Virus record (IMG/VR): IMGVR_UViG_3300022868_000022
Coordinates: 1 to 58,245 of that record
DNA from: a virus
Direction: 5' to 3' (one strand)
DNA: 58,245 bases
Part shown: positions 2,946-58,004 of the stretch, piece by piece
How the letters are laid out: each line of letters begins with the position of its first letter
Position numbering within the stretch: the first letter of the stretch is position 1
Program-made: the position numbers and the translations under genes
Notes under the pieces: generated by a model
Told to the model about the DNA's origin: nothing
The model's database searches: none
What the model saw: only the letters and a program-made list of their open reading frames with translations

Positions 2946-3251
2946 TTAAATTATTTTTATTAAACTGGATTTATCGAAAAAATCTTTGTGGGTGTTGTAC
3001 CATTTGTTAAGTTTAGGAAGGTATAATTTGCTTATTTTATCGAAGGTTTCATCTTCTTTAATTTCTTCTGTATCTGTATGCATATCAAATGCTAAAATTA
3101 TATTAAGAATATTATTTCTTTGTTGTTCTGTTAATGTTTCTGGATCAAATGATACTATAAGATCAACAATTTTTTTAAAAATCTTTTTGTCAAATCCTAC
3201 CTTAGTGCCTGGTGGTATGCCATATTCTGTTATATAATTTTTAAATCTCAT
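2946..3251 (-). CDS. Leader-bearing protein, unknown function
   Basis: The 101-residue protein begins MRFKNYITEYG, a clear member of the short leader family with an I-x-E ending. The rest is helical (FKKIVDLIVSFDPETLTEQQ, then a KISKLYLPKLNKWYNTHKDF tail). By analogy with T4 internal proteins the predicted cleavage is after Glu-9. No catalytic motif is visible. Confidence 0.65.
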   Translation of the reverse strand: MRFKNYITEYGIPPGTKVGFDKKIFKKIVDLIVSFDPETLTEQQRNNILNIILAFDMHTDTEEIKEDETFDKISKLYLPKLNKWYNTHKDFFDKSSLIKII

Positions 3252-3272
3252 AATTACCTGATATACTTATAT

Positions 3273-3662
3273 TTAATGGTACTTTACGATTTTCCGACCC
3301 GTAGCAGTTTTCCCAGATTTAGCCATTCTATTTGTCATTCTTGACCGTTGCTTACCTGCAGCACTTCTTTTAAATCTGGATTTCTTTCTTTTTATAGCTG
3401 ATTTATGAGTTCTGTAATATCGTTTAGTCTGCATTCGTTTTTGTGACTTGGTTCTTTGAGCTAGTCTAATCTCATGCATATCAATATCATCAAAATCAAG
3501 CTCATCATATATAGATTCAAGCATCATACGTTGTTCATCTGACATCATATCTTCTTGCTCATTAGTCAAAGATATTAAGAAATCAGCCATCTTACTAAAT
3601 GTCTCATCGTCATAGTCTTCATCACCATCAATATAATTGTCAATTTGTTCTAATATGCTCAT
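3273..3662 (-). CDS. Acidic-basic bipartite protein, possible prohead core/scaffold component
   Basis: The N-terminal about 70 residues are strongly acidic (MSILEQIDNYIDGDEDYDD, MLESIYDELDFDDIDMHEI). The C-terminal about 60 residues are extremely basic (RYYRTHKSAIKRKKSRFKRS, GKTATGRKIVKYH). The start resembles the long leader (I..IDNYI.) without a clean glutamate. A small, charge-split helical protein between leader genes is compatible with a prohead core protein like T4 gp67/gp68, but that is by composition and context only. Confidence 0.6.
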   Translation of the reverse strand: MSILEQIDNYIDGDEDYDDETFSKMADFLISLTNEQEDMMSDEQRMMLESIYDELDFDDIDMHEIRLAQRTKSQKRMQTKRYYRTHKSAIKRKKSRFKRSAAGKQRSRMTNRMAKSGKTATGRKIVKYH

Positions 3663-3664
3663 AG

Positions 3665-4030
3665 TTAATCCTTTATACCAGCTTCTTCTTCCATCTTTTT
3701 AAGTCTAGTATAGTAATCTTTTATTTCTGCCAAATGGTCTTTAGCTATACGCTCAGCAATAACAGGGCTTGAAGTATGCTCTTTTTCAATATCTATACCT
3801 AAACTCAATTCATTGTCATCATATGTTCCTTTAAAGTCTTTAGACCTACCTGATCCAAAGAATGAACCTAATAATTTATATATTACTTCTTCAAATTTAT
3901 GCTTATTTATCCCTAATTCATCAGCTAGATTATGAATTTCATCATCTTTTGGATTAGAATTTTTTAAGAAAAATTCTATTATATCGGCTGTAACATCCTT
4001 TTCTTCATTCAAATACTCATAAAATTTCAT
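3665..4030 (-). CDS. Leader-bearing DUF5661-like protein
   Basis: It begins with the leader MKFYEYLNEE. The remainder matches what I recall of the DUF5661 family: an ELGINKHKFEEVIYKLL segment, then a Gly/Ser loop (SFFGSGRSKDF) and a C-terminal HLAEIKDYYTRLKKMEEEAG block. That family occurs in bacteria and phages without an established activity. The leader appears to have been added to a free-standing domain. Confidence 0.65.
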   Translation of the reverse strand: MKFYEYLNEEKDVTADIIEFFLKNSNPKDDEIHNLADELGINKHKFEEVIYKLLGSFFGSGRSKDFKGTYDDNELSLGIDIEKEHTSSPVIAERIAKDHLAEIKDYYTRLKKMEEEAGIKD

Positions 4031-4037
4031 ATAACAC

Positions 4038-4331
4038 CTATTTTAAGCTTAATCTCTTTCTTAATTCATTCTTAATAAATAGCATATCAGGCCCTTTAAG
4101 ACCTTTATTTTCAATTTCATAGATAATGATATTATATTTTTCTCTATTAGAAATATCCTTTTCTCTTTGTTGATCTACAGCACTTTTATCAATCTCTTTT
4201 AAATAAATTGAAATTAAAAAATTGATAATCTTTTTGTCAATCTTTTTCTTAATAGCATCTTTAATACCACTTTCCATAATAATATCTTTATCTTCCAAAT
4301 ACCTGGCTATTTTATTTTCAATGCCTATCAT
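4038..4331 (-). CDS. Leader-type small protein, unknown function
   Basis: This 97-residue lysine-rich helical protein starts MIGIENKIARYLEDKD, matching the longer leader variant (I..KI.+YL.+). The body contains DKKIINFLISIYLKEIDKSA. The gene is separated by one base from its upstream neighbour. No domain is recognised. Confidence 0.55.
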   Translation of the reverse strand: MIGIENKIARYLEDKDIIMESGIKDAIKKKIDKKIINFLISIYLKEIDKSAVDQQREKDISNREKYNIIIYEIENKGLKGPDMLFIKNELRKRLSLK

Positions 4332-5227: not shown

Positions 5228-5899
5228 ATGAGACTTAAAAATTATTTAACGGAATTAGCATCTAATTATGGCAAAGGAATCACAATGGTTGATATTGATG
5301 AAACATTGTTTAACACGTTTGCTAAAATTAAAGTAATTAAAAATGGTAAAGTAATTAAAGAGCTTGATAATCAAGAGTTTAATACATATGAACTTAAACC
5401 AAATGAATCATTTAATTTTGATGAATTTAGAAGTGCTGAAATATTTAATAAGACATCAATACCAATTCCCCAAACAGTTAATAGAATAAAAAGAATGATT
5501 AAGAACATTAAAGACAGAGGGTCCAAAATAGTATTTTTAACAGCTCGTGCAGATTTTGATGATAAAGAAGTATTTTTAAATACATTTCGTAAACATGGTA
5601 TACCAATAGATCAAATATATGTAGAAAGATCTGGTAATGATATAACAGGTACAGTTTCACAAAGGAAAAAGAAAATAGTATTAAGGTATCTTTTATCAGG
5701 TATGTATAGACGTTGTAGGCTCATAGATGATGATTTAAAAAATCTTAAAGATTTTTTATCAATAGAGAATGAATTACCACAAAATATAATAAATAAGATT
5801 AAAGAAATACATCATATATCTGATGATGAAACAATACCTGTTATAGAATTTTTTGCTTTGTTAGTAAAAAAAGACGGGTCATTAAAAAGAATTAAATAA
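5228..5899 (+). CDS. Leader-bearing HAD-superfamily phosphatase
   Basis: After the leader MRLKNYLTEL the protein has the HAD motifs in order: motif I MVDIDETLF (nucleophile Asp and second Asp), motif II FLTARAD, and an acidic motif IV RLIDDD with a lysine-rich stretch before it (QRKKKIVLRYLL). T4-like phages use such domains as 3'-phosphatases of polynucleotide kinase; here no kinase domain is present. The leader predicts packaging in the capsid and cleavage after Glu-9. The substrate could be a nucleic-acid 3' end or a small phosphate ester. Confidence 0.8.
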   Translation: MRLKNYLTELASNYGKGITMVDIDETLFNTFAKIKVIKNGKVIKELDNQEFNTYELKPNESFNFDEFRSAEIFNKTSIPIPQTVNRIKRMIKNIKDRGSKIVFLTARADFDDKEVFLNTFRKHGIPIDQIYVERSGNDITGTVSQRKKKIVLRYLLSGMYRRCRLIDDDLKNLKDFLSIENELPQNIINKIKEIHHISDDETIPVIEFFALLVKKDGSLKRIK

Positions 5900-9621: not shown

Positions 9622-11052
9622 ATGAATATAATAGAAAAATTAGAACAGTATAGTACTGATAAACTTGATGAATCAGGTATAAGAAACATGAAAAAATGGG
9701 CAAAGACTTTTAATAAAGCTGTATGCTATTATCATCAAGATACTGATGGTGTTACATCTGCAATATGCATGAAAGCTTACTTAGAACAGTATAAAATAAA
9801 GACTGTAGATTGTCATATGATACAATATGGAGGTTTAGAATTTGCAGTACAAGCACCACAAAAGGGTATGCTAGTTTATGCGGTTGATTTTGCTCATGCT
9901 AAACCTATATTTCAAATATGGACCGATCATCATGATTCTGAACATATAGGAGCAACAAAAGATATGTCAGTATCTTTTATTAAATCACCAGCTAATGTAT
10001 CACATATATCAATGACTATATCACCTAGAGATATATTTCCATCAAGAGATATACAAATTATATCAACAGTTGATTCAGCCGATTTTGCATCACAAGATTT
10101 AACTCCTGATGATATTATGAGAGCAGCATTTAAAGTAGATAAAAAAATATCAATAGAGAAAAATCATAAAGCAATGGGTCTTGTTGTTAATAAATTGCTT
10201 CTTTCTTATAAAAATAAAAAAGGATTTCTTGATAAATTAGTAATGACAGCTAAACCATCTCTTATATCAATATATACTACAATAGTCAATTTAGCTAAAA
10301 AAGAGGGGTACAATCCTCCTGAAGAAATAGAAAGAAATCAAGCAGCATATAACGCACAACAAAAAGGAAAATCAAAAGTAGGCAAATTAAGCGATATAAA
10401 GAATATTAAATGTGGTGAGTCTATTGAAGTAGGTAACACAGTTTGCCAATACGGTGGTGGTGCAATGGGAAAAGGTAAGCAATACGACAGGTATACAGTA
10501 TTTAAAAATCACCCTACAGTGGACTTCCTTTGCATAGGATGGCCTATGGGATTAATTCAAGCTTCTAAAAATCCATTTAAAGGCGGAGATACGCCAGTTC
10601 ATTTAGGTAAACTTGTATTAGGTAAAGTAATGTTGAAATATAAAAGTGCACTATCTAAAGATATTAATTTATCATATCTAAAAAGAACTTATGAATCTGA
10701 TATACTTAAAAAAGGTTTAGTTGGTTCTATAGGATATACATTTGATGACCTTATTAATTCATTTACTAATGATCAAATAAAAGGAATTGATTTAGAGAAG
10801 ACAGGTAAATGGAAGGATATTATAAAAGATATTACTAATAAACAATATAAAGATCTTAGTTTCAAACAAAAGAAAATATTAGATACAATAAGTATTAGTG
10901 CATGGGATATTGTTATGAGTCAGAGCGGTGGCCACAAGGCAATAACTAATGTGACTAATTTAAATTTTCTTGGTAAAGGTTATACAGATATAATGAAAAA
11001 AATTATGACGGATATAGTAACTGAATTACAGAAGTATAAATTAGAGGGTTAA
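9622..11052 (+). CDS. DHH-superfamily phosphoesterase with a long leader
   Basis: The 476-residue protein has the DHH-family signatures: YYHQDTDGVTSA (residues about 36-47, the D-x-D-G metal site), LVYAVDF, then IWTDHHDSEHIG (the DHH motif) and STVDSADF (further metal Asp). A second half with GGGAMGKGKQYDR and GWPMGLIQ resembles the substrate-binding DHHA1-type region. The start MNIIEKLEQYSTDKLDES fits the long leader. DHH enzymes include RecJ, nanoRNases and cyclic-dinucleotide phosphodiesterases. A packaged enzyme degrading short oligonucleotides or cyclic dinucleotides is an attractive but unproven idea. Confidence 0.8.
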   Translation: MNIIEKLEQYSTDKLDESGIRNMKKWAKTFNKAVCYYHQDTDGVTSAICMKAYLEQYKIKTVDCHMIQYGGLEFAVQAPQKGMLVYAVDFAHAKPIFQIWTDHHDSEHIGATKDMSVSFIKSPANVSHISMTISPRDIFPSRDIQIISTVDSADFASQDLTPDDIMRAAFKVDKKISIEKNHKAMGLVVNKLLLSYKNKKGFLDKLVMTAKPSLISIYTTIVNLAKKEGYNPPEEIERNQAAYNAQQKGKSKVGKLSDIKNIKCGESIEVGNTVCQYGGGAMGKGKQYDRYTVFKNHPTVDFLCIGWPMGLIQASKNPFKGGDTPVHLGKLVLGKVMLKYKSALSKDINLSYLKRTYESDILKKGLVGSIGYTFDDLINSFTNDQIKGIDLEKTGKWKDIIKDITNKQYKDLSFKQKKILDTISISAWDIVMSQSGGHKAITNVTNLNFLGKGYTDIMKKIMTDIVTELQKYKLEG

Positions 11053-12285: not shown

Positions 12286-12882
12286 ATGGTAATTTATAAA
12301 GTAACAAATAAAATAAATGGCAAATGTTATATTGGTCAAACAATATTAACAATTAATAAAAGAAAATCTGGGCATATTTATAAAAGTTTGAAAAAAAGTG
12401 ATAATTGTTATTTTCATAAAGCTATTAGAAAATATGGTAAAGATAATTTTTTATGGGAAATTATTTGTGAATGTAAAACTAAAAAAGAATTAAATGAAAA
12501 AGAAATTTATTATATAAAACAACAAAAATCATATGTTAAAGAAAATGGTTATAATTTAACTCATGGTGGTGAAGATAATCCAATGAATTATCAAAAATAT
12601 AGAGATAAAATTTCAAAAGCAAATAGTGGTGAATTAAATCCATTTTTTGGTAAAAAACATACACAAAAAACAATAAATAAAATTAAATCTTTTACTCAAA
12701 GTGATAATCATCCATCTATTAAGAAATGGATTTTAAAACATAAAGATGGCAGATCTTTAATTATTGAAAATCTAGAAAAATTTTGTAGAGAAAATAAATA
12801 TTATTCTGGAAATTTTAGAAATGTTAAAAGTGGTAAATATAAACAATATAGAGGATGGTATTTTTGTGATAATGTATCATAA
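12286..12882 (+). CDS. GIY-YIG homing endonuclease, free-standing
   Basis: The N-terminus has the split catalytic signature: VIYKVTNKINGKCYIGQTI (GIY-like VIY and YIG), followed by a conserved arginine region NKRKSGH and an ELNEKEIYYI glutamate. Then come DNA-binding modules: a NUMOD3-type repeat (NSGELNPFFGKKHTQKTINK) and a C-terminal helix-turn module around ENLEKFCRENKYY. Length (198 residues) fits Seg-like mobile endonucleases. It lies between two leader genes without a promoter and probably spreads by homing. Confidence 0.88.
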   Translation: MVIYKVTNKINGKCYIGQTILTINKRKSGHIYKSLKKSDNCYFHKAIRKYGKDNFLWEIICECKTKKELNEKEIYYIKQQKSYVKENGYNLTHGGEDNPMNYQKYRDKISKANSGELNPFFGKKHTQKTINKIKSFTQSDNHPSIKKWILKHKDGRSLIIENLEKFCRENKYYSGNFRNVKSGKYKQYRGWYFCDNVS

Positions 12883-12888
12883 GAAACT

Positions 12889-13719
12889 ATGAGACTTGAA
12901 AATTACTTAAATGAAAATAATATAAAAGATTGGACCGGATATATTAATAATAATAAGATGTTAAAATCCGCTGTAAAAGTATTACAGACTATTAATAAGA
13001 AAGGTTTTAAATGTTATATTGTAGGTGGATGTGTTAGAGATATTGTGTTAGGTATTCAGCCACATGATATTGATATATGTACTAATATGCCTATGGATAG
13101 AATAAGTAAATTATATAAAACTCATGATATAGGCAAATCAAAACAGTTTGGCATAGTCGTTATTAAGCAAGGGTCTTATAATTTTGAGATTGCGCAATTT
13201 CGCCAAGACGGCACATACAAAGATGGTAGACGACCTGATACTGTAAAAATATCAAGCTCTTTTAAAGATGATGCTAAAAGGAGAGATTTTCAAATTAATG
13301 CAATGGCAATTGATAAAGATGGTAATATTATTGATTATTTTAATGGTAAAAAAGATATTAAAAACAAAGTGTTAAAAACTGTAGGTGATCCTAATAAAAG
13401 ATTTGGCGAAGATTATTTAAGGATGTTAAGAGCAGCTCGTTTTTCAGCTAAATTGGATTTTGATATAGAACCAAAAACAAAGAAAGCTATTAAGAAATCT
13501 TCATATCGTATTCAAGATTTATCACCTGAAAGAATTAAAGATGAAATAATGAAAGCAGCATCTCAGTCAGGAGATGTCTTTGCTAAGTACCTAAATACAT
13601 TAGATGAATTGAATTTACTAAAATATATATTTCCAGAAATTATGAACTTAAAATGGTTTAAAGAAAATATGAAACATCATCCTGAAACATCTGGTTATGT
13701 AAGAAGAATTATAGAATGA
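12889..13719 (+). CDS. Leader-bearing CCA-adding/poly(A)-polymerase-type nucleotidyltransferase half
   Basis: After the leader MRLENYLNEN come class II nucleotidyltransferase motifs: VGGCVRDIVLG, then HDIDICT (catalytic D-x-D), RRDFQINAMA, and RFGEDYLRMLRAARFSAKL, followed by LSPERIKDEI. The protein ends at MKHHPETSGYV, which corresponds to the point in bacterial CCA-adding enzymes just before the HD domain. The following gene supplies that HD domain. Activity could be CCA repair of tRNA or poly(A) addition to host or phage RNA after injection. Confidence 0.85.
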   Translation: MRLENYLNENNIKDWTGYINNNKMLKSAVKVLQTINKKGFKCYIVGGCVRDIVLGIQPHDIDICTNMPMDRISKLYKTHDIGKSKQFGIVVIKQGSYNFEIAQFRQDGTYKDGRRPDTVKISSSFKDDAKRRDFQINAMAIDKDGNIIDYFNGKKDIKNKVLKTVGDPNKRFGEDYLRMLRAARFSAKLDFDIEPKTKKAIKKSSYRIQDLSPERIKDEIMKAASQSGDVFAKYLNTLDELNLLKYIFPEIMNLKWFKENMKHHPETSGYVRRIIE

Positions 13720-14468
13720 GATTAATGAACTTTATAAATGAGCAATTAATAGCAGCAAGAAATAAATATGCTGAAGGGAAAAAATTAGGTGAATTAGAAA
13801 AATATGATCGTAATAATCCTGAACATGATGATCCTAAAAAATATTTGTATTTTTCAACAGGAGCTACAGTATATTCACATACCATAGAAGCAATAAAGCA
13901 AGTTAAGATTGATCAGCCATTACAAATGTTAGCTACTGCATTACATGATACAGGTAAAGGTGTTACTCTTAGTGATAAAAAAGGTTTACCTACATATTAT
14001 GGCCATGCTAAAGAGAGTATTGAATTAGTTAATAGCATAGCTGATAGATTAAAAATGAGTAATAAAGAAAGAAATGCTTTGTTGTTTGCTGTAGGCAATC
14101 ATATGAAATTTCATAATATTCTTGGTATGAAAACAAGCAAGATAGTCAAACTTGTTAATGATGATAATTGGGATGTTTTAGTAGCTGTATCTTTCGCAGA
14201 TAGTGCATCAAGAGGTTCTTCATTTATACATGCTGGTGAATTTGAAAAAATAGTTGATAAGTGTATAAAATTAAAAGATAAATACAATATAAAAGAAGTT
14301 AAAAAAAGATTAAAGCTTGTTGATGGTAATCGTGTTATGGAGTTATTAGGATTAAAACCCGGACCTAAAGTTGGCAAAATAATTAAAGAAATATCAGCAT
14401 GGGTTATTGATAATGATATAAAAGATACAAAATTAATAGATGAGAGGATATTAGAATATGAGACTTAA
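13716..14468 (+). CDS. Leader-bearing HD domain, second half of a CCA-enzyme
   Basis: The ATGA overlap couples it to the nucleotidyltransferase gene. The leader is MRLMNFINEQ. The HD domain shows YSHTIEAIKQV, LATALHDTGKG (His-Asp), YYGHAKESIELV and AVGNHMKFH, in the order seen in E. coli-type Cca, where it has phosphatase and 2',3'-cyclic phosphodiesterase activity. The C-terminal ELLGLKPGPKVGKIIKE also matches the end of such enzymes. Thus one bacterial enzyme is split, and the second half carries its own leader. Confidence 0.82.
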   Translation: MRLMNFINEQLIAARNKYAEGKKLGELEKYDRNNPEHDDPKKYLYFSTGATVYSHTIEAIKQVKIDQPLQMLATALHDTGKGVTLSDKKGLPTYYGHAKESIELVNSIADRLKMSNKERNALLFAVGNHMKFHNILGMKTSKIVKLVNDDNWDVLVAVSFADSASRGSSFIHAGEFEKIVDKCIKLKDKYNIKEVKKRLKLVDGNRVMELLGLKPGPKVGKIIKEISAWVIDNDIKDTKLIDERILEYET

Positions 14469-15234
14469 ACAATACTTAAATGAAAGTTATACTGCTGAAG
14501 AAGTGGTTGAAATAATTAAAAAAGATTGTCCTAGATCTTATATAGTACAAACTAAAGGAGAATTTTTTTATCGTGGAACTAAAGATTCAATAAATGATAT
14601 CAAAAAATTTAAATCAAGAACTGATAGAATACCAAAAGATACACCTCCTGAATTACATAACATGTTAGATAGTTTGTTTAAAAGGTATCTTGGATGGCAT
14701 GCTAGAAGTGAAGGAACATTCGTTAATGGAAAAAAAGATAATATTAGTGGATATGGTATATCATTTATGTTTTTTCCTATAGGCAAATATGATTTTGTGT
14801 GGTCGCCTAGTATAGAAGATTTATATTCTAAAATAGAACAAAATTATATGTTAGAAGAACCTGAATATTTATTTATAAGTGATTATGATTATGATTATGA
14901 ATATAATGAAGAATCTGGAAATGGAAAATATGAATATGAAGGTATATTATATAATAATATCAATGATATAGAAGATACTAAAAATATAACAGGTAATAAT
15001 ATAGAAAATGATGCTGTATGGATACCTAACATGACATTTGAAGAATATAGAGAAAAATCTATAGATGATTATGAAAACAATAGAGATACTTATTTACATG
15101 ACTTAATTAAAACATATAGTAAAACAAATCTTAATAAAGCAATGAAATCAGGACATGAAGTTATGTTTAGATGTAAAGAATACTATATGGTTGATGCAAA
15201 ATTCAGTAAAATTTTAAGAAAGGAATTATGGTAA
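14458..15234 (+). CDS. Leader-bearing YRG-motif protein A (ADP-ribosyltransferase-like, tentative)
   Basis: The leader is MRLKQYLNES. The body has EFFYRGTKD, then KRYLGWHARSEGTFVNG, YGISFMFFPIG, and near the end SGHEVMFRCKEYYMVD. The order R (in YRG), S/T-G strand, and a late E-V-M strand resembles the R-S-E layout of ADP-ribosyltransferases such as T4 Alt/Mod, and T4 Alt is itself packaged. The resemblance is motif-level only. It is a paralogue of the 16020-16679 protein; an acidic Tyr/Asp insert (YDYDYEYNEE) is specific to this copy. Confidence 0.6.
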   Translation: MRLKQYLNESYTAEEVVEIIKKDCPRSYIVQTKGEFFYRGTKDSINDIKKFKSRTDRIPKDTPPELHNMLDSLFKRYLGWHARSEGTFVNGKKDNISGYGISFMFFPIGKYDFVWSPSIEDLYSKIEQNYMLEEPEYLFISDYDYDYEYNEESGNGKYEYEGILYNNINDIEDTKNITGNNIENDAVWIPNMTFEEYREKSIDDYENNRDTYLHDLIKTYSKTNLNKAMKSGHEVMFRCKEYYMVDAKFSKILRKELW

Positions 15235-15243
15235 AGGATAAAT

Positions 15244-16023
15244 ATGAAAGGTTATTATTATTATAAGGCGTTAAGAAAGACTATTATACAATTTTTGGAT
15301 ATCTTTAATGACATTTATGTTGCAAGATATGATGCAGACGGTGTTCTTATTAAGACTTTTAAAGTCCCTCTTAAATTTGCTCCAAAAGAAAAAGTTTACT
15401 ATTATATTTTTGAGAATAATAAGAGAGAAGAAATGTTGCCTATAATGGCTGTAGATATTGCTTCTATTGATTTTGCTGAGGATAGGTTAGTTAATAAACA
15501 TAAAAGAATATCAGTGTCTAAAGATACAACAACAAGTTTAATGTCGTCATATTTAACACCTATACCTTATAACATAACATTCAATCTTAACATATGGTCA
15601 TTATATATTATTGATATTGATCAGATATATGAGCAAATACTACCATTCTTTACACCATATATTTTTATAAGAGTGTATATACCTGAATTGGATTCAACAT
15701 TTGATATAAAGGTTATATTACAAGGAAGCTCATCTGAGTCAACATTAGAGATGGGTGAGGAAGATGAAAGAATTATAAAATGGAATTCTTCATTTGTAGT
15801 TCAAACATACTTATTTAAACCATTATCAGATGTTGGTATAGTTAAAAAGGTATTTCCAAGATTGTTTACTAGTAAAACTGGATTTGGGAATAGAAATACC
15901 GAATCAATTTTTACATCAGGTGCAGCACCATCTGCTGCAGCGGAATCAATGTTTCTTGAAGGAACTGGCTATGATGCTGATGCTGCAATACTATATGATT
16001 ATGAGGTATTTCCTAAACAATGA
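15244..16023 (+). CDS. 15: Tail sheath stabiliser/completion protein, T4 gp15-like
   Basis: The 259-residue protein matches the gp15 pattern: an N-terminal GYYYYKALRKTIIQFLDIFN, then KVPLKFAPKEKV, MLPIMAVDIASIDF, SSYLTPIPYNITFNLNIW, QILPFFTPYIFI and a WNSSFVVQTYLFKP strand. In T4, gp15 caps the tail and joins it to the head neck. It sits between the two YRG paralogues and next to tail tube and sheath genes. Confidence 0.85.
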   Translation: MKGYYYYKALRKTIIQFLDIFNDIYVARYDADGVLIKTFKVPLKFAPKEKVYYYIFENNKREEMLPIMAVDIASIDFAEDRLVNKHKRISVSKDTTTSLMSSYLTPIPYNITFNLNIWSLYIIDIDQIYEQILPFFTPYIFIRVYIPELDSTFDIKVILQGSSSESTLEMGEEDERIIKWNSSFVVQTYLFKPLSDVGIVKKVFPRLFTSKTGFGNRNTESIFTSGAAPSAAAESMFLEGTGYDADAAILYDYEVFPKQ

Positions 16024-16679
16024 GACTTAAACGATATTTAAAAGAAGATGGTAATATTGACAGTATAATAGATAATCTTAAAAAAGATTGTAAGCCATTT
16101 CTTGATCAAGTTAAGAATTCATTCTTTTATAGAGGATATAAAGGTGATTTTGTTAAAGATATTAAGAAAGTTAAATCTAGAATAGATAGACGACCATCTG
16201 ATACTATAATTGATGTGCATAATACGTTAGATGATCTGTTCAAAAAAAAATTTGGATGGAAAGCAAGAAGTGAAGGAGTATTTGCTACAGGAAGTGAATA
16301 TCAAGCTTGTCAATATGGCATATCATATTTATTTTTCCCTATAGCAAAATTTAATTTTATATGGTCACTTGATATTATTGATTTATATATAAAAATAAGT
16401 AAAGATAATTTTAATGGTGCATACTCTGTTACAAGAGGTGAATATAAATATGATAAAGATAAAAAAGAATTTATAACATTTGAAGAATGGAAGCAAGAAA
16501 AATTTGAAGAGCATAATAAAAAGCAAGAAGAATTTTTTAACAAACTTGCTAAATTATATAGTAAAACAAATCTTAATAAAGCAATGAAATCAGGACATGA
16601 AGTTATGTTTAAATGTAAAGAATATTATTTAGTGAATACTAGTTTAAAAAAATATTTATTAAAGGAATTATGGAAATAA
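16020..16679 (+). CDS. Leader-bearing YRG-motif protein B (paralogue)
   Basis: It starts MRLKRYLKED by ATGA overlap with the gp15-like gene. It shares with protein A NSFFYRGYKG, KARSEGVFATG, YGISYLFFPIA and SGHEVMFKCKEYYLV. The DNA for the C-terminal region (TYSKTNLNKAMKSGHE-type segment) is almost identical in the two genes, so duplication or gene conversion is recent. The ADP-ribosyltransferase idea stands or falls with its paralogue. Confidence 0.6.
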   Translation: MRLKRYLKEDGNIDSIIDNLKKDCKPFLDQVKNSFFYRGYKGDFVKDIKKVKSRIDRRPSDTIIDVHNTLDDLFKKKFGWKARSEGVFATGSEYQACQYGISYLFFPIAKFNFIWSLDIIDLYIKISKDNFNGAYSVTRGEYKYDKDKKEFITFEEWKQEKFEEHNKKQEEFFNKLAKLYSKTNLNKAMKSGHEVMFKCKEYYLVNTSLKKYLLKELWK

Positions 16680-27874: not shown

Positions 27875-29479
27875 ATGAGATTTATCAAATACTTACAAGA
27901 AGCATTAACTTTAAAGCAAGTCAAAGAAATCAAACCTGCTATACTGTCTAAAAAATATAAGACATATCTTAATAAAGTCTTTAAAGGTGAAGACAGGATA
28001 TACCTTGATTTTGATGCTAATAAAGAAGACATTAAACCTCCTAAGGCTATAGATAATTTTATTAAATCTAATAAGTTAAAGATTGTTAATTATAAGAAAG
28101 GTATTGTACAGTCGGGTAAAAAAATATTAAGACTTGGTAAAGTGTTGTCTAAAAATAAAGAACAAGATCTATTAAAAGTATTTATTAATGACAAGAGAAG
28201 AACTAGTGGTAAGAAAACTGATTTGCTTATAGTTATATCCAGACATCCATATGATTTAGCTGGCATGAGTACTGACCGTGGATGGACAAGTTGTATGGAC
28301 TTACAAGGTGGTATGTTTCAAAAATATATACATAAAGATATAAAATACGGTACTTTAGTAGCGTATATTATTAATACAAATGATAAAAATATTAATAAGC
28401 CTATAGGAAGGATTCTTATAAAACAATTTATAAATATAGATAATGAAAAGGATATGGTACTTTATCCAGAGAAAAAAGTTTATGGATCTGATGTCTCTGG
28501 ATTTAGAAAAAGAATTATAGCATGGCTTAAGACTTTTCAGAAGTTTAAAGGTACATATGAAATAAATCCTGAATTATATGTTGATACAGGGACAAATGTT
28601 ATAGGTTTAGGTTATAAAGATAGCTCTGACTTTAAAATAAGGGGATTATATTATCAAAATAATCCAGATGATAAAGATGCTAAAAAAGAATTTATTGATA
28701 TTATAAGAAAACAATATTATCAAAATCATCCAAATGACCCTGATGCTAAAACAGATAATGATTATGGTATTAAAAAAAGATATTATGATAACCATCCTGA
28801 AGATAAAGATGCTAAAACAGATGAATATCAAAGTATAAGAATGGAATATTATAAAAAACATCCTGAAGATAAAGATGCTAAAACAGATGAATATCAAAGT
28901 ATAAGAATGGAATATTATAAAAAACATCCTGAAGATAAAGATGCTAAAAAAGATAGTGATAATGATGTAAGAAGGATATATTATGACCATCATCCGAATG
29001 ATAAAGATGCAATAAAAGACGTTGATAGTGAAATAAGAATAACATATTATAAACATAATCCTAATGATCCTAATGCTAAAATAAATGACAATGTAAATAT
29101 AAGAAAGGCATATTATTTAAAAAATCAAGATGATAAGGATGCTAAAAAAGATAAAAGTCTTCATATAAGAAGATTTTATTATGACAATCATCCGAATGAT
29201 AAAGATGCTAAAACAGATGAATATCAAAGTATAAGAATGGAATATTATGAAAATCATCCGAATGATAAAGATGCTATGAAAGATCCTGGTAATATTGTAA
29301 GAAAACAATATTATCATAATAACCCTGAAGATAAAAATGCTAAGAAAGATGATAATACTCGCATAAGAGAATTATATTATTATAATCATCCGAATGATAA
29401 GGATGCTATGAAAGATGATTGGCATTATATAAGAAAACAATATTATGAAAATCATCCAGAAGAAGAAAAAAAGAAATAA
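27875..29479 (+). CDS. Leader-bearing 13-fold 22-residue repeat protein
   Basis: The leader is MRFIKYLQEA. Residues 10-250 form a globular domain with VISRHPYDLAGMSTDRGWTS, CMDLQGG, YGTLVAYIINTND and GRILIKQF; this domain is, as I recall, widespread in large phages but uncharacterised. From about residue 255 the protein is 13 consecutive 22-residue repeats of pattern IR..YY..HP.DKDAK.D, rich in Tyr, Asp, Lys and His, ending in EEEKKK. The repeats resemble DNA- or metal-binding solenoids only in being regular. It is packed between gp25 and gp6. Confidence 0.65.
   Translation: MRFIKYLQEALTLKQVKEIKPAILSKKYKTYLNKVFKGEDRIYLDFDANKEDIKPPKAIDNFIKSNKLKIVNYKKGIVQSGKKILRLGKVLSKNKEQDLLKVFINDKRRTSGKKTDLLIVISRHPYDLAGMSTDRGWTSCMDLQGGMFQKYIHKDIKYGTLVAYIINTNDKNINKPIGRILIKQFINIDNEKDMVLYPEKKVYGSDVSGFRKRIIAWLKTFQKFKGTYEINPELYVDTGTNVIGLGYKDSSDFKIRGLYYQNNPDDKDAKKEFIDIIRKQYYQNHPNDPDAKTDNDYGIKKRYYDNHPEDKDAKTDEYQSIRMEYYKKHPEDKDAKTDEYQSIRMEYYKKHPEDKDAKKDSDNDVRRIYYDHHPNDKDAIKDVDSEIRITYYKHNPNDPNAKINDNVNIRKAYYLKNQDDKDAKKDKSLHIRRFYYDNHPNDKDAKTDEYQSIRMEYYENHPNDKDAMKDPGNIVRKQYYHNNPEDKNAKKDDNTRIRELYYYNHPNDKDAMKDDWHYIRKQYYENHPEEEKKK
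28640..29465 (+). repeat. 66-bp repeat array (13 units) in a leader gene
   Basis: Units of 66 bases encode 22 residues each; units 3-5 and 9 share long identical stretches (e.g. the KTDEYQSIRMEYY segment), indicating recent expansion. The array makes up the C-terminal half of the gene. Confidence 0.85.
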
Positions 29480-56796: not shown

Positions 56797-57104
56797 ATAC
56801 ACTACATTCTTTAATTTGTAATTTAAAATCTGCTTTATTAGGAATGATTTCAAAATTTAATTGTTCAATCATTCCTAATAATAATTCTTTTGTTGTTATT
56901 TCTTTATAATTTCCTTGTAAAAGAATAGATTGATTTGATTTAAGTTTACCTGTTTTATTTTCTAAATCTTGCATTCTTTGATAAAGTCTGTGTAATTCAT
57001 CTCTTTGATTATCTTGTATTTCTTTTAATAATTTTTTGCTTATCATATTATACCTTTTATAACTACATATTTATTAATTCTCTTTATCATACACTACATT
57101 CTTT
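56793..57104. repeat. 20-bp direct repeat flanking a small gene (56793-56812 and 57085-57104)
   Basis: The sequence tatcatacactacattcttt is present perfectly at both places, 292 bases apart. It encodes the same C-terminus, KECSV, in two unrelated genes, and in the first copy it runs into the tRNA 5' end. It suggests recombination at a tRNA-gene edge. Confidence 0.85.
56795..57046 (-). CDS. Small helical protein ending KECSV
   Basis: The 83-residue product is a predicted coiled coil (RDELHRLYQRMQDLENKTGK) followed by TTKELLLGMIEQLNFEI. The stop codon overlaps the 5' base of the tRNA-like gene. Its last residues equal those of the RNA ligase upstream, because of the 20-bp repeat. Confidence 0.6.
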   Translation of the reverse strand: MISKKLLKEIQDNQRDELHRLYQRMQDLENKTGKLKSNQSILLQGNYKEITTKELLLGMIEQLNFEIIPNKADFKLQIKECSV

Positions 57105-58004
57105 TATAACAGTCTTTTGTACTTGTTTGTTAATGTATTTAGAATAATGTTTTTCCCATACAATATCATCTTTTGCTGAATCTTTCTTAACATCTAATAC
57201 AATCTCCCTCATAACATCACCTATAAGTTTTTTTGTATATCCAGGAAATTTACTCATAGCTGACTGAATACGATTTTCATTAATATATGGATCTATATCA
57301 CTATAATCATATTCAATTCTTGGTTTTTTGTTCTTTGGTTTTCTTACCATCTCATCAAAATTTTGATGTTTTATTTTGAAAATGTATCGTGAAAGACCTG
57401 TTAATTTAGGTCTTGATAAACATCTAACAACATATCCCTCAATTATGTTACCCTCAATAGGATTAATAAATGAAACTATTTTAGTCTGATCACCTTCAAG
57501 ACTTGCTGTTAAAGTCTCTACAAGTTTATTAAATGTAGTTTTTACAATACTATGTACTGGAGCATATTGAAATGGTTTAAATTCACTAGCAATATCAATG
57601 GTATAATACTGAAATGTATGATATTTACCTTCATTGTCTTTAAAATCAAAGATATAAAAAGCTTTATCACCATAATCTACACCTTTTTGTATACCCTGAC
57701 CGGCAATCTCACCATAAGCAAAGTCAATATCAGTATTAAGATCAAAAAATGACTTCCAATCATACCCGTCCATAACTTCTTTATATTTTGTAGGTAAAAG
57801 ATGGCCATTTCGTGTAAAGTATCTTGGTCCATCTTTGTATTTATTGCTTATACAAATTGAAGAACCATGAATTTTTTCAGAAATATGAAATTCTTCAACA
57901 TCATTTGCTAAATCAATATCATCAGTATATTTATCTACAATTTTTGGTATATATTTATAATTTTCAATTTCAGAAAATCTAACAAATTTTTTATCTTCAG
58001 ACAT
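57087..58004 (-). CDS. rnlB: RNA ligase, T4 Rnl2 (RnlB)-type
   Basis: The 305-residue protein has motif I ISEKIHGSSICI (nucleophile Lys, K-x-x-G), YFTRNG (motif Ia-like), motif III FAYGEIAGQGIQKG with a KAFYIFDF motif IIIa, motif IV EGNIIEGYVVRC and motif V FKIKHQNF. This is the Rnl2 order, and a C-terminal helical domain follows. Rnl2 enzymes seal nicks in double-stranded RNA such as cut tRNA or mRNA hybrids. It starts the operon leading to the tRNA-like gene. Confidence 0.9.
   Translation of the reverse strand: MSEDKKFVRFSEIENYKYIPKIVDKYTDDIDLANDVEEFHISEKIHGSSICISNKYKDGPRYFTRNGHLLPTKYKEVMDGYDWKSFFDLNTDIDFAYGEIAGQGIQKGVDYGDKAFYIFDFKDNEGKYHTFQYYTIDIASEFKPFQYAPVHSIVKTTFNKLVETLTASLEGDQTKIVSFINPIEGNIIEGYVVRCLSRPKLTGLSRYIFKIKHQNFDEMVRKPKNKKPRIEYDYSDIDPYINENRIQSAMSKFPGYTKKLIGDVMREIVLDVKKDSAKDDIVWEKHYSKYINKQVQKTVIKECSV

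Follow-up and report, generated by a model that had tools for sequence, protein, structure and literature searches.

A phage CCA-adding-type enzyme encoded in two leader-bearing pieces, and the probable homing-endonuclease origin of the break

Two reading frames for one tRNA nucleotidyltransferase

The window analysed here is the whole of a 58-kb virus record (IMGVR_UViG_3300022868_000022; 58,245 nucleotides), whose family matches to a tail sheath, a sheath stabiliser and a hub-lysozyme mark the virus as a contractile-tailed phage. Two plus-strand reading frames, at 12889..13719 and 13716..14468, overlap by the sequence ATGA (13716-13719), the start codon of the second overlapping the stop of the first. 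The upstream piece (NT, 276 aa) comprises a nucleotidyltransferase head and an RNA-binding part, with Pfam matches to PolyA_pol (4.4e-35) and PolyA_pol_RNAbd (3.9e-14) and the motifs GGCVRD (residue 46), HDID (59), RRDFQINAM (131) and EDYLRMLRAARF (174); it has the RNA-binding domain and the head-domain motifs GGxVRD...DxD, RRDFxINAM and EDxLRxxRAxRF of class II tRNA nucleotidyltransferases (PF01743 family). The downstream piece (HD, 250 aa) comprises an HD domain and a C-terminal part, with matches to Pfam tRNA_NucTran2_2 (4e-6), Pfam HD (0.004, under its cut-off) and phrog_2244 (7e-12). Its motifs SHT (54), HDTGKG (77), GHA (96), NHMKFH (128), ADSASRG (161) and DGNRVMELLGLKPGPKVG (203) include the HD signature of the E. 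coli Cca type and further metal-site residues (H55, HD77-78, H97, H129, D162). All the active-site motifs that were looked for are intact in the two pieces.

Both NT and HD match a single family, the phrog_2244 tRNA nucleotidyltransferases, on adjoining stretches of its 392-position profile (2-226 and 216-387, respectively), and on this evidence they are two parts of one bacterial-type tRNA nucleotidyltransferase of the CCA-adding kind. An earlier note, written from the letters of this DNA, had likewise described a CCA-adding-type enzyme split into two genes with a leader each, the second beginning with MRLMNFINE at an ATGA overlap; reading frames, Pfam and phrog_2244 agree with that description, and the kinship to Cca that it proposed to look for in profile searches was found for both pieces. 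It had also placed the break at the HPE segment, and in alignments with single-chain relatives the homology indeed stops directly after HHPETSG and picks up again at GATVYSHT.

The homologous blocks are separated by about 160 nt, which encode about 38 extra residues and a leader. The YVRRIIE that ends NT (the C-tail, 13696..13716) and the first 48 or so residues of HD find no clear counterpart in the alignment with unbroken relatives. The latter stretch includes the leader MRLMNFINE (13716..13742) and, beyond a spacer, the N-tail KKLGELEKYDRNNPEHDDPKKY (13779..13844), which like the C-tail is missing from the single-chain enzymes. NT itself opens with a capsid-targeting-like leader, MRLENYLNE (12889..12915), that ends in an LxE site. 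Among the 359 reading frames of the window and of G001, a related 161-kb phage that has about 30 genes in common with it, NT alone ends in the C-tail motif (chance about 7e-5 per reading frame). Contigs from two other metagenomes hold both halves at 99.6-100% identity, the replicate contig L001 differing from the window by one residue, and a contig from a third metagenome holds the upstream half, where the contig end cuts it.

Unbroken relatives, homing endonucleases and matched tails

Viral contigs supplied 80 related loci for comparison. Most of them encode the enzyme as a single chain, which in the nearest clade has about 470-480 aa and one leader, and we conclude that the split is derived. 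These near, unbroken relatives bear a leader, one each, a point on which the earlier note had rested a test of its proposal. The single-chain phage tRNA nucleotidyltransferases of phrog_2244 (L031, L039 and G001) are orthologues whose NT part is 64-69% identical to that of the window and which also start with one leader, but they are unbroken and lack both the tails and the second leader. On the tree, the split enzymes are scattered and several adjoin unbroken ones. A leader-bearing single-chain enzyme with 68% identity also occurs in L111, probably a phage contig, which was binned under the archaeal Thermoplasmata. Another locus, L074, was set aside as a plain frameshift rather than a split gene.

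A GIY-YIG gene lies between the pieces in six split relatives (L070/L079, L076, L077, L086, L121 and L122). The break is at the same site as in the window in L070 and L079, and in a loop of the head domain, after EVAQFRxD, in L076, L077, L086, L121 and L122, where it is made by a GIY-YIG-type gene. Two far relatives, L118 and L120, share the break site of the window and have retained the tails; their pieces are separated by gaps of 41 and 129 nt that hold no nuclease gene. The clearest trace of an insertion comes from L070, which is 91% identical to the single-chain L039: the two are identical up to HPETRG, where the element follows in L070, and after about 30 diverged codons they are again nearly identical. 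This pattern would be that of co-conversion, as after recent homing, and the diverged tract behind the element resembles the start of the window's HD piece.

Between the window's own pieces no endonuclease gene is present, and we therefore class the window only as a probable descendant of a homing-split gene. A gene for a 198-aa GIY-YIG/NUMOD3 homing endonuclease does lie just upstream of NT (12286..12882, plus strand; Pfam GIY-YIG 3.3e-8, NUMOD3 4.3e-9), and in an alignment of 207 positions its product shows 35% identity to the nuclease encoded between the L070 pieces. A mobile GIY-YIG element that brought matched tails has most likely left the split as its scar; in the window itself, a nuclease would have caused the break and later have been lost. 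Neither the two tails nor this tie to homing endonucleases figured in the earlier note.

A precedent exists in the Aeromonas phage Aeh1, in which mobE splits NrdA into NrdA-a and NrdA-b and the split enzyme is fully functional (PMC2988022). There, as in the split relatives with a GIY-YIG gene, the gene of a homing endonuclease has divided that of an enzyme into two reading frames. The window's pieces have extra terminal tails at the break, which are missing from unbroken relatives. The Aeh1 case differs in the gene affected, in the nuclease (HNH there, GIY-YIG here) and in its tails, which have no similarity to those described here. Unlike in Aeh1, one tail pair recurs across nine lineages and two sites of breakage, and a capsid leader can stand on the second piece.

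Crona et al. (2011) reportedly describe extra terminal tails of split NrdA that act as interaction domains. The present tails are likely, from their conservation and from one AlphaFold model, to dock the two pieces. Each of the nine split lineages has, at the end of its upstream piece, residues resembling [YTF]V[RQ][KR][IV] (a tail of about 7-9 residues) and, on its downstream piece, the sequence KLGPxxxYDPNNPEHxDPxKY or one close to it (22 residues), whichever the break site. In 35 of the 36 lineage pairs the tails resemble each other more than the enzymes do, a similarity that is partly due to selection because four lineages (L118, L120, L121 and L122) were found via the tail pattern, while L070, L076, L077 and L086 were found via the enzyme. 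Most variation in the tail codons falls at third positions, and this, together with the paired conservation at two sites with or without a nuclease, argues for a role as protein. L120 was modelled with AlphaFold as one chain, read through the intergenic gap. This model (pLDDT 87.7) resembles CCA-adding enzymes along the whole of both pieces (Z 33) and places beta strands at TVQKII in the C-tail and at KLGPKIT and YKLN in the N-tail, with a pLDDT of about 63-68 at best. The model of the loop-site relative L122, which included an out-of-frame linker of 250 residues, gives the tails low confidence and shows no such strands, the C-tail being helical.

Pattern scans of IMG/VR with the N-tail returned only split tRNA nucleotidyltransferases, save for chance matches (evidently L124-L126 and L128) and one small protein. 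The latter is a 75-aa phage protein (L130, 2470-2697; also L131) whose N-terminus ENFDPNNLDHVNHYKYF resembles the N-tail; it could be the source of the tail or a coincidence. A tblastn search of a phage collection with the tail consensus gave no match, short queries being weak in such a search. L127 was rejected as a split relative, as it is without tails and encodes an unrelated HD-kinase protein, apparently an HD domain fused to a P-loop kinase (2977-4083 of LR756500.1, from a 462-kb phage).

The main alternative to docking is that the pieces work separately, NT adding nucleotides alone and HD acting as a free phosphohydrolase, with the tails as scars and with two leaders because the proteins are independent. 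Gram-positive CCA enzymes add nucleotides without an HD domain, each piece is a natural module with its own start and leader, and the metal-site motifs are kept in HD. Against it, the loop-site splits cut within the catalytic domain, so that those pieces must reassemble to work, and yet they carry the same tails; the HD piece moreover includes the C-terminal tRNA_NucTran2_2 part. We consider separate action unlikely, if the strongest of the rivals.

Leaders and capsid targeting

NT and HD share the start MRLxx[YF][LI]NE, a leader that begins 12 reading frames of the window and 27 of G001, where shuffled sequences gave expectations of 0.03 and 0.08. The gene that follows HD (14458..15234, plus strand; phrog_11975, leader MRLKQYLNE) has a leader-bearing paralogue at 16020-16679, and the two flank the tail sheath stabiliser gene; both are candidates for packaged effectors. 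Leaders also begin a HAD phosphatase at 5228-5899 (Acid_phosphat_B 4e-7; phrog_415 polynucleotide kinase 2e-6), possibly a second packaged RNA-end repair enzyme, and a 534-aa reading frame in the tail module (27875-29479, MRFIKYLQE, no family match).

The capsid targeting sequence (CTS) of phage T4 reads MKTYQEFIAE. Like it, the leader is a short N-terminal peptide with the same hydrophobic and aromatic spacing, kept in MRLxxYLNE and in the MKTFEKYLNE of G001, and a terminal [LI]xE; it differs in having nine residues that begin with MR[LF]. In addition, between 12 and 27 genes of a record start with the motif, the two pieces of a tRNA enzyme among them. In T4, the 10-residue CTS is carried by IPI-III and Alt (PMC9026906, PMC7411985), residues 4 and 7 matter most for targeting and residues 8 and 10 for processing, and the protease gp21 cleaves after L/I-X-E (PMC9026906). 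Again as in T4, a gp21-like protease (PF03420, 9e-29) is encoded by G001, together with T4-type head genes for scaffold, major head protein, portal and terminase, and the LQE at residue 42 of its head protein is a plausible cleavage site. No head gene was recognised in the window, which is a fragment. The leader is in keeping with a capsid-targeting sequence of the T4 type, and the proteins that bear it would be packaged.

The leaders may instead serve otherwise, as membrane or nucleoid targeting signals or as recombination hubs between genes, and the leader genes, which are clustered and in many cases adjoin one another, could be taken in that sense. The spacing, the key positions and the final [LI]xE match the T4 CTS (PMC9026906), codons 6 and 9 of the leaders show synonymous variation, and the relative G001 encodes a gp21-like protease, all of which make such a role distinctly less probable than capsid targeting and, in our estimate, quite unlikely.

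A second leader is found in both lineages of the leader clade split at the window's site (the window and L070/L079). The L070 HD piece starts with MKYREYLSE, the equivalent of the window's MRLMNFINE, and in each the leader is followed by a spacer and then KKLG, so that in this clade the N-tail is, to judge from the sequences, one that gained a capsid leader. Downstream pieces of the other split lineages start directly at MKLG or similar. Since the diverged L070 tract resembles the window, the second leader was possibly gained once, on the element; the window and L070 may share one element, and these are perhaps not two independent gains. The downstream pieces of the loop-site splits L076, L077, L086, L121 and L122 are without a leader, and some of these phages have leader-like starts on upstream pieces or on neighbouring genes. 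Other apparent leader types, for example MRFDEYYLTE, MNKLMTKYVDLLE and xxTLxFYLE, occur on several genes neighbouring L076, L086 and L122. The leaderless pieces either ride into the head with the first piece or belong to phages in which packaging is dispensable.

The five leaderless pieces also limit the proposal of the earlier note that each half is targeted on its own: it is partly supported, by the second leader of the leader clade, and does not extend to the loop-site splits. Its stronger wording, that a second leader only makes sense with separate targeting, is not supported in view of these five relatives.

Proposed history and function

That the insertion inactivated the enzyme, the pieces now being lost by decay, would accord with the longer end branch of the joined window enzyme on the tree (0.37, against 0.16 for L031, its nearest single-chain kin). 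This reading is very unlikely, given intact active-site motifs in both pieces, frames that are open in independent assemblies and conserved tails and leaders. Splicing to one chain, at the RNA level by an intron or at the protein level by a split intein, is more remote still: exact joins at the break would give the correct length, but Rfam searches found no group I or II core at the break, with no intron in L070, L076, L077 or L086 and no match at gathering score in the window, about 160 nt (window) or 41 nt (between the L118 reading frames) is too short for a ribozyme core, Pfam scans found no Hint domain and no Hint-fold halves at the break, and the tails are conserved as protein. A sequencing frameshift or misassembly, for which the existence of single-chain relatives could be cited, is ruled out because independent contigs of other metagenomes show the same break and because the homologous blocks lie about 38 extra residues and a leader apart.

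We regard it as somewhat more probable than not that a one-chain CCA enzyme was split by a GIY-YIG gene since lost, and that its pieces dock by their tails, are both packaged and serve in tRNA repair. A T4-like phage would have had a bacterial-type CCA-adding enzyme in one chain with one capsid-targeting leader, and a GIY-YIG homing endonuclease gene would have broken the gene by landing where the catalytic body passes into the HD domain. The edges of the element would have left a short C-terminal tail on NT and a 22-residue N-terminal tail on HD, which most likely dock the two together. The nuclease gene between the pieces would later have been lost or moved, a related one now sitting just upstream. 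With a leader on the second piece too, both pieces could enter the prohead, where a gp21-like protease would trim each of them after NE, and once injected they would act early in infection to rebuild tRNA 3' ends that have been trimmed.

The best solved structural relatives are CCA-adding enzymes. With bacterial class II enzymes (PDB 6q52, 1miv), and with E. coli Cca and its HD domain, the phage enzyme shares the fold over both pieces, to judge from the L120 model, and the catalytic motifs; it differs in its two chains, leaders and tails. All eight of the tRNA genes found in G001 encode CCA, so the enzyme, judged from these genes, more likely repairs trimmed tRNA ends than matures phage tRNAs. 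A T4 Rnl2-type RNA ligase without a leader (57087-58004, minus strand; PF09414 5e-13, T4_Rnl2_C 2e-8) fits the tRNA-repair theme. The window also encodes a leaderless 476-aa protein (9622-11052) with a weak DHH match (2e-5, under its cut-off).

A broader proposal, which we put forward tentatively and at somewhat less than even likelihood, is that the GIY-YIG element of phage tRNA nucleotidyltransferase genes brings a matched pair of tags, a C-terminal peptide of the YVRKII kind and an N-terminal module of the KLGPxxxYDPNNPEHxDPxKY kind, that staple the broken enzyme together wherever the element has landed, the second tag having gained a capsid leader. If true, this would add to introns and inteins a third means of interrupting a gene that leaves it functional, and where the enzyme is packaged, a leader on the second tag would bring the downstream piece into the head as well as the upstream one. 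The proposal is made testable by the nine lineages and two break sites, by the near-identical alleles L039 (unbroken) and L070, and by the conserved tail pair, which could provide a small natural protein-pairing tag. The findings further point to an enzyme that repairs tRNA 3' ends and is packaged in the virion, as would suit a response of these phages to host defences that attack tRNA.
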